Source: an uncultured Sphingomonadaceae bacterium (GTDB taxonomy: Bacteria; Pseudomonadota; Alphaproteobacteria; Sphingomonadales; Sphingomonadaceae). From it: a stretch of DNA of 64,000 nt. The notes beneath the pieces were generated by a model that saw only the letters and a list, made by a program, of their open reading frames with translations, did no database searches and was not told the origin of the DNA. The stretch spans positions 310,001 to 374,000 of the forward strand of contig CANLQI010000002.1 of the NCBI GenBank assembly GCA_947493325.1. Direction: 5' to 3'. Below, piece after piece: positions 9,474-55,733 of the stretch (within the stretch, counting starts at the first letter, position 1; the number at the start of each line of letters is the position of its first letter). The position numbers and the translations under genes were made by a program.

Positions 9474-12458
9474 ATGACACTCGAAAAGACATTCAGCCCC
9501 GCCGCAATTGAAGCCCGCTGGTACAGCCATTGGGAAGACAAGGGCCTGTTCCGCCCGGAGCGGGACGAGGCAGAGCCGTTCACCATCGTCAACCCGCCGC
9601 CCAATGTGACGGGCAGCCTGCATATCGGCCATGCGCTTGATAACACCTTGCAGGACATCATCATCCGGCACGAACGGCTGAAGGGCAAGGACGCGCTGTG
9701 GGTGGTTGGCACCGACCATGCGGGTATCGCCACGCAGATGGTGGTCGAGCGGCAGATGATGGAGCTGCAACAGAAGCGCACCGATTTCACCCGCGACGAA
9801 TTTGTCGAGAAAGTCTGGGCGTGGAAAGAAGAGAGCGGCGGGACGATCACCGGCCAGCTACGCCGTTTGGGCTGTTCGATGGATTGGTCAAACGAACGCT
9901 TCACCATGGATAAAGGCTTTACCCGCGCCGTGACCAAAGTGTTTGTCGATCTCTATAATAAAGGCCTGCTCTACCGCGACAAACGGCTCGTCAACTGGGA
10001 CCCGGGCCTGAAAACCGCGATTTCCGATCTGGAAGTGGAAACGGTCGAAAAGAACGGCAAATTCTGGCACTTCAAATATCCGCTGGAGGACGGAAGCGGT
10101 TCCATTTCGGTCGCCACGACGCGCCCCGAAACGATGCTGGCTGATATGGCAGTGGCGGTGCATCCGTCAGACGAACGCTATGCCGATATGGTCGGCAAGA
10201 TGGTCAAGCTGCCGATCACGGGCCGGCTGGTACCGATTGTCACCGACGAACATGCCGATCCCGAACTTGGATCAGGCGCGGTGAAGATCACGCCGGGCCA
10301 TGATTTCAACGATTTCGAGGTGGGCAAGCGTGCAGGCTTTGCTCCTGCAGATATGCTAAACATGCTCGATGCCGAGGCGAAAGTGTGCCAGACATCGGAC
10401 GGCCTGATCCCCGAAGAGTATCTGAGCATGGACCGTTTCGACGCGCGCAAAAAGGTTGTGGCGGCGATTGAAGCGGAAGGGCTGCTCGAAAATATAGAGG
10501 ACCGCGTGATCCAAACGCCCTATGGCGACCGCTCGAACGAGATTATCGAGCCCTGGCTGACCGACCAATGGTATGTCGATGCGGAAACACTCGCCCAGCC
10601 CGCAATTGAGGCGGTGAAATCAGGCGAGATCGAGATTGTCCCCAAAAGCTGGGAGAAGACATATTTTAACTGGATGGAAAATATCCAGCCCTGGTGTGTT
10701 TCAAGGCAATTATGGTGGGGGCACCGGATTCCTGTTTGGTATGGGCCATATAAGGACAACAAAGACGAGTGGGCATACCCTGCTGATCATTATCGCAATG
10801 GCGAAATGTTTATATGCCAAACTGAAGAAGATGCTCTACAAAGGGCTGCGGAATTTTATGGCAAAGAAGTTGTAATCGCTGACTACTCAGATGCGATAGC
10901 AAGTTGCTTGCCGGGTACCGAACAATATAGGAAATATCTTGGAAAGTTCGTCATCTGGCAAGACTTGGACGTTCTCGACACATGGTTCTCCTCTGCGCTG
11001 TGGCCGTTTGCCACGATCGGCTGGCCCGATGATATGGAAACCCTCCCCCTTGAGGGGGAGGGCAGGGTGGGGGTGTCCGACTCTATCGAAGGCGCGACCC
11101 CCTCACCCCAACCCTCTCCCCGCCGGGGAGAGGGAGTTAGGGCGAAACCCGGTTCAGATCTCGCCCGCCACTACCCGAACGACCTGCTGATTTCCGGCTT
11201 TGACATCCTGTTTTTCTGGGACGCACGCATGGCGATGCAGGGCATTGAGTTTATGGGTGAGGTGCCGTGGAAACGGCTCTATCTGCACGGTCTGGTGCGC
11301 GCCGATGATGGCAGCAAAATGTCGAAATCGAAAGGCAATGTGGTCGATCCGCTGGGCCTGATCGACGAATATGGCGCCGATGCGTTGCGCTTTTTCATGG
11401 CGGCGATGGAAAGCCAGGGCCGCGATATCAAGATGGATAAAAAGCGTGTGGAAGGCTATCGCAATTTCGCCACCAAACTGTGGAATGCCGCGCGTTTCTG
11501 CGAAGTGAACGGCATTGGCGCGAGCGACACGCTGAAAGCGCCCGAGGCAACCCTGCCGGTCAACCGCTGGATTATTTCCGAAGTGGTGGAAACGCTGGAA
11601 ACGCTCGACAAAGCGCTGGCCGACCTGCGTTTCGATGCGGCGGCGAACACGATCTACCATTTCACATGGGACCGTTTCTGCGACTGGTATCTGGAGCTTA
11701 TCAAGCCTGTTCTATCTCCCCTCCCGCCCGCGGGAGGGGCCGGGGGTGGGCCTGAAACAGGTAATGAAGCGCATGACATTCCCACCCCTAACCCCTCGCG
11801 CGAGCGGGAGGGGGATGAAACGCGCAGGGTGGCAGGCTGGGTGCTCGACCAGATCATCGTCATGCTGCACCCCTTTATGCCGTTTATCACCGAGGAGCTG
11901 TGGCACTCCATGGCGGCGGACAAAGGCGGGCGGGCCTATGACCTGATCGTCGCCAAATGGCCCGACCCGCGCGCGGCTATCGATGCGGATGCCAAGGCGG
12001 AGATTGACTGGATCATCAAGCTGGTGAGCGAAGTGCGCACCGCCAAGGTTGAGCTCAACATCCCGCCGGGCGCAAAAATGGCCGCGCATGTGCGTGATGG
12101 CGATGCGGACTTGATGGCGCGTATCGCGCGCCAGACGGCGGCGCTGGACCGTGTCGGCAGGTTGGAAAAAGTGACTGCCGATGCCGCACCAGATGGCGCG
12201 GCGGCACAGATTGTCGTGGATGGCGCCACCTATGTTCTTCCACTCGAAGGCGTGATCGATATTGCCGCCGAAAAGGCGCGTCTGAACAAAGCGTTGGAAG
12301 GCGTCATGAAGGAAGCCAAATCTCTGGAAGGTCGCCTCAGCAACGCCAATTTTGTCGAGCGCGCCAAACCCGAAGCGGTCGAAAAGGCGCGCGCCGACCA
12401 TGCCGACAAAACTGCCGAGGCCGAGCGGCTGCAGGCCGCATTGGCGCGGCTGGGGTGA
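9474..12458 (+). CDS. valS: Valine--tRNA ligase with two in-frame repeat insertions
   Basis: A 994-residue class I aminoacyl-tRNA synthetase that charges tRNA-Val. It has [15 protein letters not shown] with the HIGH motif at residues 50-53, the editing domain (about 190-350), KMSKS at 615-619, an anticodon-binding domain and a C-terminal coiled coil (about 920-990). It is longer than most ValS because two Pro/Gly-rich segments interrupt conserved sequence. One spans residues about 524-560, between GWPDDMET and [10 protein letters not shown]; the other spans about 748-783, between YLELIKPVL and VAGWVLDQI. Both correspond to palindromic DNA elements and keep the frame open. All other landmarks are intact, so the enzyme is expected to be functional. 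Confidence 0.97.
11041..11144 (+). repeat. Palindromic repeat element inserted in frame in valS (subtype 1)
   Basis: About 104 bases made of two perfect hairpins: CCCTCCCCC/GGGGGAGGG with loop TTGA (11041-11062) and CCCTCTCCCC/GGGGAGAGGG with loop GCC (11112-11134). A less perfect GGGTGGGGGT / ACCCCCTCACCC pairing lies between them. It is translated as a segment containing [11 protein letters not shown] and [13 protein letters not shown]. No such segment occurs at this point in ValS proteins I know, where the GWP region runs directly into the YYP-type segment. Confidence 0.85.
11718..11815 (+). repeat. Palindromic repeat element inserted in frame in valS (subtype 2)
   Basis: It starts with a perfect 10-bp hairpin CCCCTCCCGC/GCGGGAGGGG (11718-11739), followed by a G-rich tract, CCTGAAACA, then ACCCCTAACCCCTCG and a GCGGGAGGGGGAT end. 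The translation includes [15 protein letters not shown] and [12 protein letters not shown]. The metH element at 45251-45350 has the same layout, the same ends and the same reading frame, with variable sequence only in the middle. Confidence 0.88.
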
Positions 12459-12475
12459 TGGAGATCGCCAGTCCG

Positions 12476-12558
12476 TACTCCTGCGAAAGCAGGAATCCAG
12501 AGCGGCAAAATGCCAGCCATTGTGCCAGATTGCCCTGGGCTCCTGCTTTCGCAGGAGC
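12476..12558. repeat. Two-hairpin palindromic repeat, family A copy 1
   Basis: Two GNRA-like hairpins, TCCTGC-GAAA-GCAGGA (12479-12494) and TCCTGC-TTTC-GCAGGA (12541-12556), are arranged as an imperfect inverted repeat about 83 bp long overall. The element fills most of the valS-queE gap, and the open frame upstream of queE runs through it. Other copies are at 24261-24343 and 46014-46085. Confidence 0.88.
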
Positions 12559-12584
12559 GCTTTATGCGCGCCGGAATACAATGC

Positions 12585-22548: not shown

Positions 22549-22986
22549 TTGTATCTCCCGAGGCAAAGGCTGGGGACGGGAGGCGCTGAGTCTGTTTGAT
22601 TTCACGGCTGTTTTTCGCCGACGCGAAACGGTGATGATACATCCAGATCCTCCCTGAAACTTTAGTTTCGGGGAGGGGGACCGTTTTGCGAAAGCAAAAT
22701 GGTGGAGGGGTGAAAGCGGTAAAGTGCAAAGCCTTGTGTTTAATTGCACCCACCCCTCCGCCGATCCCATGAAAGTAAGACTTTCATGGGTGCCCCTCCA
22801 CCACTTGGCTGCGCCAAACGGTCCCCCTCCCCATGCCTGCGGCACAGGGAGGATTTGAAACCAGCCATCGTTTCGCGAAATACCGACCGGCCGCCGGCTG
22901 GTTAGGCCGAACCCATTTGGAGGCGGCGCGCAGCGCCTTGCCGTGAAATCAAAATACTCAGCGATTTACCGCGAGATCAAACAGAC
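22549..22986. other. Gene-free interval filled by nested inverted repeats
   Basis: The 438 bases between the SIMPL gene and the end of the htpX-like gene hold no gene. Nearly all of the interval belongs to the nested repeat listed at 22584-22963. The few bases on either side show nothing. Confidence 0.8.
22584..22963. repeat. 380-bp nested inverted-repeat island
   Basis: The outer ends form a roughly 24-bp imperfect terminal inverted repeat: CGCTGAGT...TTTGATTTCACGGC (22584-22608) against GCCGTGAAATCAAA..ACTCAGCG (22940-22963), with the inner 14 bp perfect. Next inward, GCGAAACGGTGATG faces CATCGTTTCGC. The core (about 22650-22855) pairs a CCTCCCTG..GGGGAGGGGGACCG arm with CGGTCCCCCTCCCC..AGGGAGGAT and contains smaller hairpins such as CATGAAAGT/ACTTTCATG. 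No coding capacity is seen. It could be a non-autonomous MITE-like element or several repeats inserted into one another. Confidence 0.75.
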
Positions 22987-24208: not shown

Positions 24209-24260
24209 TGCGCCACGTTGAAGCGTCTGTTTGATCCGCGCCATTGGTATCACTCAAGAC

Positions 24261-24343
24261 GTACTCCTGCGAAAGCAGGAGTCTAGGGCGATAAGTCAAA
24301 CGGCGGCATACAACACTCTGGATTCCTGCTTTCGCAGGAATAC
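24261..24343. repeat. Two-hairpin palindromic repeat, family A copy 2
   Basis: Same architecture and length as the copy after valS. GTACTCCTGCGAAAGCAGGA begins the left arm and TTCCTGCTTTCGCAGGAATAC ends the right arm within 24318-24343. The arms pair over about 26 bp with few mismatches, each contains its own TCCTGC/GCAGGA hairpin, and the middle (GGCGATAAGTCAAACGGCGG) is unrelated to the other copies. It lies between the DUF1674 gene and the end of rpoN. Confidence 0.85.
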
Positions 24344-24398
24344 AAAAATTTGCCAGCTGCTTCTTTCAGGCAGGGAATTCGGCATCCGCAGCGCTGTG

Positions 24399-26053: not shown

Positions 26054-26144
26054 AAGCCTGTTCCATCCCGCTCCCCCGCCCAACCTCCCGATAACATTAT
26101 ACCATGTCGGGAGGTTGGGCGGGGGAGCGGGATGGAACAGGCTT
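26054..26144. repeat. Perfect 38-bp inverted repeat with 15-nt loop
   Basis: The arm at 26054-26091 (beginning AAGCCTGTTCCATCCCG) is the exact reverse complement of 26107-26144 (ending GGGATGGAACAGGCTT). The loop is TAACATTATACCATG. Transcribed from either strand it would give a very stable 38-bp hairpin. It lies between lptB and rpoN, upstream of rpoN. Confidence 0.95.
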
Positions 26145-43261: not shown

Positions 43262-45949
43262 ATGACCACCAACAGCACAGCCCAATTCGTCAATATTGGC
43301 GAGCGCACCAATGTGACCGGCAGCGCGCGGTTCAAAAAGCTCATCATGAATGATGACTATGAAGCCGCGATTGAAGTCGCACGTCAGCAGGTCGAAAACG
43401 GCGCGCAGATTATCGACGTCAATATGGACGAAGGCCTGCTCGATGCGGAAGCGGCGATGACGCGTTTCCTCAAACTGATTGCGGCGGAGCCCGATATTGC
43501 CCGCGTGCCGGTAATGATCGATTCGTCGAAATGGTCGGTGATCGAGGCGGGTCTGAAATGCGTGAGCGGCAAGCCTGTCGTAAACTCGATTTCCATGAAG
43601 GAGGGCGAGGCAGAATTCCTGAAACATGCGCGGCTGTGCATGGCCTATGGCGCAGCGGTTGTTGTCATGGCGTTTGACGAAACCGGCCAGGCAGACACGA
43701 AACAGCGTAAGGTCGAGATTTGCGAGCGCGCCTATAAGTTGCTCACCGGCATCGGTTTTCCGCCCGAGGATATTATTTTCGACCCGAATGTCTTTGCCGT
43801 GGCCACGGGCATTGACGCGCATAATAATTACGGCGTCGACTTTATCGAAGCGGTGCGCGAGATCAAAAAACGCTGCCCGCATGTCCATTTTTCGGGCGGG
43901 CTGTCCAACCTTTCATTCAGCTTCCGCGGCAATGAGCCTGTGCGCCGCGCCATGCACTCGGTATTTCTCTATCACGCCATTCCCGCCGGACTCGACATGG
44001 CGATCGTCAATGCGGGGCAGCTGGATATTTATGACGAGATTGATCCCGCGCTGCGCAAAGCGTGCGAGGATGTCATTCTCAACCGGCATTCGGGCGCGAC
44101 CGAGAAGCTGATCGAGCTTGCCGAGAGCTTTCGCGGCAAGAGCAAGGCAGACGAAAAAGCAGCCGCCGAATGGCGCGGCTGGGACGTGGTGAAGCGGCTC
44201 GAACATGCACTGGTCAAGGGCATTGACGCGCATATCGTCGCCGATACCGAGGAAGCGCGGCTGCTGAAAGACCGTCCGATCGAAGTCATCGAAGGCCCGC
44301 TGATGGATGGCATGAATGTGGTGGGTGACCTGTTCGGGTCGGGCAAGATGTTCCTGCCGCAGGTGGTTAAATCGGCGCGTGTCATGAAAAAAGCCGTCGC
44401 GCATCTCCTGCCCTTTATCGAGGAAGAGAAGGACGAGAACGCCAAGGGCAAGGGCCGCATCATTATGGCCACGGTCAAGGGCGACGTGCATGATATCGGC
44501 AAGAACATTGTCGGCGTTGTGCTGCAGTGCAATGGCTATGAAGTCATCGACATGGGCGTGATGGTGCCGTGGCAGGATATATTGACGCGGGCGAAAGAAG
44601 AGCAGGCGGATATTATCGGGCTTTCGGGCCTGATTACGCCGTCGCTCGATGAAATGGTGACCGTGGCCGAGGAAATGCAGAGGGCGGATATGGATATGCC
44701 GCTTCTGATCGGCGGCGCGACGACATCGAAAGTGCACACCGCGCTGCGTATTGCGCCTGCCTATAAGGGTCCTGTCATCCATGTGCTCGACGCAAGTCGC
44801 GCCGTAGGCGTGGCCTCCACGCTGGTCAGTGGCACGCTGAAAGACGATTATGTCGCCAAAATCGCGGATGAATATGAAGAGGTCCGCATCAAGCGTGCGA
44901 ATAAAGGCCAAAGTAAGCTGATTTCGATTGAAGATGCCCGCGCCAACGCGTTTGCAGCAGATATGTCGCTGAAAGCGCCTGCACCGAAACAGCCCGGACT
45001 GCATGTCTATGACGACTGGGATCTTGCGGATCTGCGCGCATATATCGACTGGACACCATTTTTCCGCAGCTGGGAACTGGCGGGGAATTTCCCGGCGATT
45101 CTGGACGATGAAGTGGTCGGCGAAAGCGCGACCAGCCTCTATAATGATGCGCAGGCCATGCTCGATAAAATCATTGGCGAAAAATGGCTGACCGCCAAGG
45201 GCGTGGCTGGGCTCTGGCGGTGCCGGCGCGATGGCGATGATGTGCTCATCTCCCCCCTCCCGCCTGCGGGAGGGACCGGGGGTGGGCCTGAAACACGCAG
45301 CAACAGTGATGGCACACCCCCCCCTAACCCGTCCCGCACGCGGGAGGGGGATATTAGAATGCCGTTCCTGCGCCAGCAGATCGCCAAGCGTGAGGGCCGC
45401 GCCAATATGTGTCTGGCTGACTTTATTGACGGAGTGGATGACTGGATTGGCGGTTTTGCGGTCACTGCAGGGCACGGGATTGAAGAGCATCTGGCGCGGT
45501 TCAAGGCTGACCATGATGACTATTCGGATATCCTGCTGAAAGCGCTGGCCGACCGGCTGGCGGAGGCGTTTGCCGAGCGGATGCACCAGCATGTCCGCGC
45601 AGAGCTGTGGGGCTATGCCGCCGGTGAGCTGCTTACCAATGAGGCGCTGATAAAGGAAAAATATCGCGGCATTCGTCCGGCGCCTGGCTATCCGGCCTGT
45701 CCCGACCATAGCCAGAAGCCGCTTCTGTTCGATATGCTGGATGCGACCGCCAATACCGGCATTACCCTCACCGAAAGTTTTGCGATGGTGCCGACGGCGG
45801 CGGTGAGCGGATTTTACTTCGGTCACCCACAATCCGAATATTTCGGCGTGGCACGCGTGGGCGAAGACCAGCTCACCGAATATGCGGACCGACGCGGTGT
45901 GGATCTGGATACCGCGCGGCGGTGGCTGCGCCCGAATCTGGATGGGTGA
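43262..45949 (+). CDS. metH: Methionine synthase, folate/cobalamin/activation subunit, with in-frame repeat insertion
   Basis: An 895-residue protein with the pterin-binding domain ([18 protein letters not shown], residues about 9-26), the cobalamin domain (DVHDIG, Asp408-His410-Gly413), and the C-terminal reactivation domain ([31 protein letters not shown]). It transfers methyl from methyltetrahydrofolate via cobalamin to homocysteine held by the upstream subunit. Residues about 664-698 (SPLPPAGG...NPSRTREGD) are a palindromic repeat translated in frame, at the place where E. coli MetH has the short loop after VGDDIEIY in the activation domain. All catalytic motifs are intact. Confidence 0.95.
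45251..45350 (+). repeat. Palindromic repeat element inserted in frame in metH (subtype 2)
   Basis: It has the same plan as the second valS element. The 5' hairpin is CCCTCCCGC/GCGGGAGGG (45255-45274), then ACCGGGGGTGGGCCTGAAACA, a variable middle, CCCCTAACCC, and a 3' hairpin TCCCGC-AC-GCGGGA (45332-45345) ending GGGGGAT. It is translated in the same frame as in valS. Confidence 0.9.
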
Positions 45950-45977: not shown

Positions 45978-46013
45978 AATCGGTACCGAGCCAAAAAGAA
46001 TCCATCCAGCCAT

Positions 46014-46085
46014 TACTCCTGCGAAAGCAGGAGTCCAAGGCAGCCCTGTGCATCACCACCTTGGATTCCTGCTTTCGCAGGAATG
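46014..46085. repeat. Two-hairpin palindromic repeat, family A copy 3
   Basis: TACTCCTGCGAAAGCAGGAG begins the left arm (46014 on) and CCTTGGATTCCTGCTTTCGC begins the right arm (46059 on). The arms pair over about 25 bp and each holds a TCCTGC/GCAGGA hairpin. It lies between metH and the PNPOx-like gene, and is about 11 bp shorter in the middle than copies 1 and 2. Confidence 0.85.
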
Positions 46086-46107
46086 CGAATGACGCTATGC
46101 TCCCCCC

Positions 46108-55504: not shown

Positions 55505-55576
55505 ATCAGCTTGGTAGCGGGGCGATGCTGGCGGGTGAAGGGGTAATTGCGGCTGTGCAAAAATAATCTGTAACTC

Positions 55577-55721
55577 GTCATCCTGAACTTGTTTCAGGAT
55601 CCATCGCGCAGTTGCAGAACCGCTGCGTATATTGGGTGGCGAACTTTGCCGCACACGCTCTGGTCTTCTCGAAAAACTGAACATAGTTTGAAAATGGATC
55701 CTGAAACAAGTTCAGGATGAC
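55577..55721. repeat. 27-bp perfect inverted repeat flanking the recQ upstream region
   Basis: The arm at 55577-55603 (GTCATCCTGAACTTG then TTTCAGGATCCA) is the exact reverse complement of 55695-55721. The 91 bases between have no gene. The arms themselves contain TCCTGAA/TTCAGGA palindromes. It lies between recQ and the ABC exporter gene. Confidence 0.92.
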
Positions 55722-55733
55722 GGGAGAATGAAA

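Follow-up and report, generated by a model that had tools for sequence, protein, structure and literature searches.

An in-frame palindromic repeat in metH and valS of a Sphingomonadaceae bacterium and the occupation of the same enzyme loops in its relatives

Palindromes of 100-150 bp that lie in frame within genes, belong to several families, and occupy solvent-exposed places are described for Rickettsia (RPE) and Wolbachia (PMC3767692, PMC10969869). One biotin ligase gene has a region common to the Wolbachia and Rickettsia elements, and in 18 ortholog sets of 5 Rickettsia genomes no ortholog lacks the element at the shared sites (PMC3767692). A single insertion predating the divergence of the family was preferred by the R. 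japonica authors, who nevertheless call hotspots "still not negligible" because all aligned orthologs were filled (PMC3767692). Intragenic REPs from many bacteria, and in-frame ones from sphingomonads, were published in 2013, with S. alaskensis and E. litoralis providing examples in tRNA synthetases (PMC3733652). In that article, no dedicated transposase was found for the CGTC REPs, recB of 2 Xanthomonas was hit by a REP at about the same site, and the sites differ between REPs in other genes that share a functional category (PMC3733652). In-frame palindromes in Rickettsia and Wolbachia, intragenic REPs in sphingomonads, and hints of site reuse (recB, biotin ligase) are hence already in print; a search conducted largely outside the subscription literature found no report from sphingomonads of unrelated palindromes occupying a single loop that is empty in sister species.

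The element shared by metH and valS

The stretch of DNA analysed here, called the window, comprises 64,000 nucleotides (contig CANLQI010000002.1, positions 310,001 to 374,000) from a source genome of 2.57 Mb, designated G000; G001 and G002 are congeners, and other G numbers denote further genomes and L numbers loci. On the plus strand, metH (43262..45949) encodes a cobalamin-dependent methionine synthase with folate, cobalamin, and activation domains, 895 aa long with its insert (TIGR02082, 1165.7 bits, above cut-off; PF02965, PF00809, PF02607, PF02310). The gene is preceded by one for a homocysteine S-methyltransferase (PF02574; 42083-43249) and is the sole MetH match in the source genome, the second match of the same query being the valS insert; MetH seems to be split into 2 genes, a homocysteine S-methyltransferase and a folate/cobalamin/activation part. 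The valS gene (9474..12458, plus strand) encodes a valine--tRNA ligase of 994 aa with 2 inserts (NF004349 and TIGR00422, both above cut-off). The enzymes that host the inserts are essential.

A palindromic element, termed type A, occupies 45251..45352 in metH and 11715..11816 in valS, where it forms the second insert. Both copies have the same orientation (plus strand), are read in frame 0 of the host gene, and are 82% identical over 102 bp (E 1.2e-20 in the genome search), confirming the preliminary description of one palindromic element lying in frame in both genes. The ends first proposed for it, 45251-45350 and 11718-11815, delimit the element but fall a few bases short of the best ones. 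The likeness comprises direct repeats in the left part (11715-11759 and 45251-45295, 93%) and the right part (11773-11816 and 45309-45352, 82%). With up to 3 mismatches, CCCCTCCCGCNNGCGGGAGGGG is present at 4 places in the window, all of them element ends (shuffle mean 0.01; 0 of 100 shuffles reached 4), as the motif of the left and right terminal hairpins in metH (45254..45275 and 45328..45349, plus strand) and in valS (11718..11739 and 11792..11813, plus strand). The metH copy encodes the insert peptide SPLPPAGG...REGD. An error of sequencing or assembly was ruled out by homologous copies in several genomes, in frame and with one common to G001, and an ordinary low-complexity linker by the inverted repeats with homologous copies elsewhere. 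Rfam gave one tRNA elsewhere in the window and no RNA family at the elements; the position inside coding sequence, together with this lack of an Rfam match, ruled out an attenuator or riboswitch.

Three further type A members, each of 105 bp, lie in frame in coaBC, glyS, and ileS of the source genome, and all read SPLSFRGG...PHPNPSPKGEG. The 5 in-gene copies thus measure 102-105 bp, are read in the same frame, and have similar interiors. They carry terminal inverted repeats, the 2 ends of the element reading TC(A/T/C)CCCC and GGGG(CTT/GAT), and the RNAalifold consensus of the 5 pairs 22 + 9 bases end to end. Four of the 6 frames are open in the metH and valS copies each and 3 of 6 in each 105-bp copy, so that stops alone cannot impose a common frame; the shared frame suggests, short of proof, a further preference beyond open frames.

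We used a covariance model of these 5 copies (R1) to search the genomes, scoring 150 of the 292, 264, and 183 first-look candidates in G000, G001, and G002, respectively, and counting rows on both strands. Such a model ranks in-gene copies first, and the ranking is not used as evidence. The source genome has at least 22 R1 places at E <= 1 (17 at E <= 0.02), the 5 in-gene copies included, although several of the others are weak or another palindrome; G001 has at least 19 rows (both strands), and G002 has none among the 150 of 183 candidates scored. Other genomic copies, whose absence would have told against a mobile element, therefore exist. Gene context was assigned by a codon-score classifier whose in-gene counts are lower bounds, corrected by hand; it missed the first valS insert, one ileS type C copy, and the S. 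vulcanisoli copies in metH and an oligopeptidase B-like gene. Six of the 21 R1 places classified (out of 22) lie in genes, namely the 5 type A copies and, by hand, the first valS insert. That insert (11038..11137, plus strand; R1 match C2:321038-321137) is a type B palindrome, related but distinct, which is read in frame and encodes ...PSPRRGEG. Among the 17 places listed, 11 lie outside genes or at gene edges; about half of these have the ends AAGCCCC...GGGGCTT, exactly or with slight deviations, and some of the 11 (C2:91617, C1:681143) represent different palindromes. The labels, types A-F and T1-T5, were assigned by eye and then checked by clustering.

A second group, type C, was searched with a model from 5 copies (R2; 150 candidates scored per genome, both strands counted). 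It has at least 57 places in the source genome, and 3 of the 55 examined are in genes, ileS twice and carA once (2 by score, one by hand). Three of the 5 sequences behind R2 are intergenic doublets of the window, at 12474..12562 after valS (R2 match C2:322474-322562), 24260..24345 (C2:334260-334345), and 46011..46088 after metH (C2:356011-356088). The ileS gene (L005) holds 3 palindromic inserts (1007-1093, 1484-1588, and 2732-2815) of 2 groups, amounting to about 90 extra residues. The window also contains a perfect inverted repeat (26054-26144; arms of 38 nt, loop of 15 nt), an inverted repeat with GGGGAGGGGGACCG ends (22670-22832) that by eye resembles the GGGGAGGGGGACCG palindromes which other genera carry in their GlyS and ValS loops, and a CGTC-tagged inverted repeat (CGTCATCCTGAACTTG...CAAGTTCAGGATGACG; 55576-55722) that spans the predicted start of a minus-strand gene for a RecQ-like helicase, as either a 5' leader or an N-terminal in-frame copy.

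Beyond the source genome, R1 rows at E <= 1e-4 were obtained in 29 of 59 genomes, comprising 24 of 35 from the same family and 5 of 24 others (67 candidates scored per genome, both strands). Only about 4 of 60 high-scoring copies from 10 other genomes lie in genes (2 by score, 2 by hand): metH and the oligopeptidase B-like gene of S. vulcanisoli (G030), ppdK (G018), and gcvPB (G023). Another copy, L300, was scored as in-gene but has a stop and is separate from these. The ppdK copy is read in the metH/valS frame, and the gcvPB and oligopeptidase B-like copies in other frames. With about 4 in 60 sampled copies in genes, type A elsewhere lies mainly outside genes; copies within genes have the look of survivors.

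States of the insertion sites in relatives

The metH site, where G000 reads VLISPLPP..., is empty in both G001 (L059) and G002, and 60 of the 80 best of 587 MetH matches have no insert of 14 aa or more there. Relatives without the insert, as the preliminary description anticipated, are thus at hand, and the segments are not common to all relatives. The type A insert in metH is derived, not ancestral. The coaBC site is likewise empty in both congeners. Insert 2 of valS is filled in G001, with 101 of 102 bases identical and flanks at 91.8%, and empty in G002; an identity above that of the flanks may reflect recent transfer or constraint. Insert 1 of valS persists in G001 as an in-frame remnant 72 bp shorter, and its site is empty in G002. 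At the glyS site, G002 is empty and G001 holds a different palindrome at the same place. Neither congener has a palindrome at the type A site of ileS, yet both carry non-palindromic loops there, of 41-47 residues compared to 57 in the source genome. The type C copy of carA is absent in G001. By eye, filled sites lack about 3-18 bp of the loop present in empty ones, a figure that depends on the alignment of diverged flanks, and no target duplication was seen by eye at metH, coaBC, or valS insert 2, where the loops have diverged.

Among 81 MetH sequences (the window plus the 80 best of 587 matches), 21 have an insert of at least 14 aa, all at one site. In 9 of the 21, folding is much stronger than in random windows from the same gene (z -2.6 to -6.3), and 12 are non-palindromic. 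On a quick IQ-TREE phylogeny of 68 rows, built with insert columns dropped and 13 distant relatives without palindrome left out, the palindromic state requires at least 4 changes. S. faeni (L031), which carries element T2, is nested inside the T1 group, and the branches that place it have SH-aLRT 93 and are unstarred; this suggests an exchange of one palindrome for another in MetH, a single T1 group being also possible. A non-palindromic insert type (RHSDDHR.PDG..VPE and kin) occupies the MetH loop of L034, L044, L068, L082, L083, and L086, with 4 changes on the tree, and perhaps consists of decayed palindromes.

In other genera, MetH, ValS, GlyS, and IleS hold palindromes that differ from those of the source genome at corresponding sites. 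ValS site 1 (31 sequences, 30 genomes) is filled in G000 (z -2.8), G003 (-4.1), G018 (-4.8), G019 (-1.8), and G023 (-1.5), the last 2 being called by sequence, and holds the remnant in G001. For GlyS, where 38 of 39 loci from 37 genomes were resolved (G014 was not), 10 of the 23 genomes from the same family have a palindromic insert, recognised by fold in 8 and by sequence in G003 and G023, and none of the 14 others has one; G045, from another family, has a 27-residue loop at z -1.7 and was not counted as filled. The IleS loop was resolved in 30 of 30 loci. Of the 24 same-family genomes, 6 hold a palindrome there, called from the fold in 4, from an inverted repeat of 38 bases (z -1.6) in G018, and from the sequence in G023; the frame-broken G009 was not counted as filled, and the 6 others hold none. 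All filled GlyS and IleS inserts listed have a length of 3n. We clustered 35 hand-chosen inserts against shuffles, with one standing for 4 T1 copies and the gcvPB and oligopeptidase copies left out. At z > 7, 22 of them fall into a G-rich group, 7 into a CGTC group, and 5 into a CCGTTTGT/GTCGAG group, and one remains a singleton; raising the threshold to z > 10 divides the G-rich inserts into sets of 16, 3, 2, and 1. At the lower threshold, GlyS holds all 3 groups, IleS 2 and the singleton, ValS site 1 two, and MetH the G-rich group only, its palindromes falling into 2 parts of that group at z > 10. Judged by sequence clustering at z > 7, GlyS, IleS, and ValS site 1, but not MetH, are each occupied by unrelated groups.

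The MetH insert lies within the activation domain (PF02965, residues 587-879), where residues 664-701 amount to 38 residues against 14 at the same place in methionine synthase chain 3bul of the PDB, which we take to be the E. coli enzyme; the placement of the element at a short loop of E. coli MetH in the earlier reading agrees with this. In an AlphaFold2 model of MetH, the only host modelled (29 relatives, mean pLDDT 78.2; pTM 0.53, at which the domain arrangement is uncertain), a strand at 660-664 is followed by residues 668-695 with pLDDT < 50 and a strand at 698-701. The insert is thus predicted to be a low-confidence turn between 2 strands, in agreement with the idea of a flexible insert.

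Proposed spread and persistence of the palindromes

The derived insertion, the frame, the reuse of loops by unrelated sequence groups, and the low-confidence MetH loop demonstrated above are the parts of our account read directly from the data. On the whole, the metH and valS segments are probably copies of a spreading, non-autonomous palindromic repeat that is kept in a few tolerant loops, with loops reused across lineages. Such an element would consist of 2 inverted hairpin units of 102-105 bp, resemble a REPIN or MITE, and spread within the genome, its copies presumably moving by transposition or templated copying. Within core single-copy genes, a copy would survive only if it has 3n bases and no stop and lands in a loop permissive for a long flexible insert, and the proteins are presumably made with the insert and working. 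Different elements would reach the same loops in different lineages because tolerant loops are few, and one palindrome may replace another in a loop.

A bolder extension, which we regard as tentative, is that a few core-enzyme loops (MetH activation domain, ValS catalytic domain, GlyS beta, and IleS) offer selfish palindromes a common refuge throughout Sphingomonadaceae, being recolonised by unrelated families and having their palindromes exchanged, perhaps with no need for a dedicated transposase. Copies in essential genes would then decay more slowly than intergenic ones because deletions other than benign 3n ones would be lethal.

How the copies move could be explained in 2 ways that are versions of the same account. 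The first, which we consider fairly unlikely, dispenses with a transposase and has single-stranded palindromes copied into gaps or nicks by template switching in replication or repair. No enzyme was found, loop bases are missing at filled sites with no target duplication seen, single hairpins exist besides doublets (GlyS of G003 and G007; ileS of G023), and palindromes were possibly exchanged in MetH, all of which would suit such copying; homologous 102-105-bp copies with similar interiors in 5 genes point instead to the copying of whole units. The second version, in which a RAYT (Y1 tyrosine) transposase mobilises a REPIN in trans, would accord with the 2 inverted hairpins of the element and appears unlikely. 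In a profile search of 59 genomes, the transposase profile PF01797 matched in 14, G002 among them, but neither in G000 nor in G001. It is present in 3 of the 4 genomes richest in R1 rows (G030, G033, and G029, not G023), and in G033 an R1 match (C12:73124) lies about 3.4 kb from a PF01797 match (C12:69387-69713). Against this, 10 RAYT loci, out of 20 PF01797 places and with those of G029 and G033 outside the 10, contain no R1 match, and 4 of 9 checked by eye carry other inverted repeats of their own beside the gene (e.g., GTGACAGTTTAC and GGGGACAGTATAC). Nor was PF01797 a clear predictor of R1 rows among the 35 family genomes (p = 0.09), 7 of which lack it and have at least 20 rows.

Selection of the inserts for a function, as peptide or mRNA hairpin, rather than mere tolerance, seems improbable to us. 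Its main support comes from the elements common to G000 and G001: in-gene copies are identical at 214 of 217 aligned bases, summed over 3 elements of different types with only 28 bases from valS insert 1, compared to 544 of 589 for 7 intergenic type C copies, 2 further pairs being unalignable and dropped (Fisher p = 0.0003), and to 1952 of 2168 in the flanks of the in-gene elements. In this small and mixed sample, the excess is compatible with slow decay in essential genes, with selection acting on the hairpin, or with recent transfer, which would give the same picture, and the same loops are occupied by unrelated peptides while empty relatives are common. That the segments are ancestral portions of MetH and ValS which some relatives have lost, as the sharing of valS insert 2 by G000 and G001 might hint, is very hard to reconcile with the empty metH sites of the congeners and most of the best matches and with other palindromes at the same MetH site in other lineages. 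A spreading repeat retained in a few tolerant loops remains the account we favour, and the loops concerned offer a natural list of places at which enzymes accommodate about 30-40 additional residues.

Comparison with known palindromic repeats

Type A resembles REPINs in having 2 inverted hairpin units around a variable middle and differs from them in that its ends lack a GTAG tag, the source genome has no PF01797 match, and the 10 RAYT loci have no R1 match. Like MITEs, it is short, with terminal inverted repeats and no gene of its own; a target duplication, expected of a MITE, was not seen by eye in loops that have diverged, and no parent insertion sequence was identified for it. The CGTC-tagged REPs have a closer likeness in type C, since the in-gene copies of ileS (2) and carA are in frame and start with CGTCAT, like the REPs of PMC3733652. 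Type A has neither a CGTC nor a GTAG tag, and the R2 copies of the window start with CGTACTCC (the doublet at 12474..12562 among them) or TTACTCC rather than CGTC.

The likeness to the RPE and Wolbachia elements is one of kind. Type A too is a palindrome of about 100-150 bp (102-105 bp) in several genes (metH, valS, coaBC, glyS, and ileS), in frame, with the gene intact, and absent from some orthologs; several families are involved, and for MetH a low pLDDT between strands suggests an exposed, flexible site. The proposal of a sphingomonad counterpart of RPE holds to this extent, and needs amending in that several families rather than one occupy the same loops and that copies elsewhere are mostly outside genes (about 4 of 60 within). 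Whereas the aligned Rickettsia orthologs are all filled (PMC3767692), a given site in close relatives of the sphingomonad may be vacant, hold the element or a shortened form of it, or hold another palindrome. This variety of states makes the question of insertion hotspots testable, and close relatives that differ in this way at one site are what the present loci add to the systems already described.
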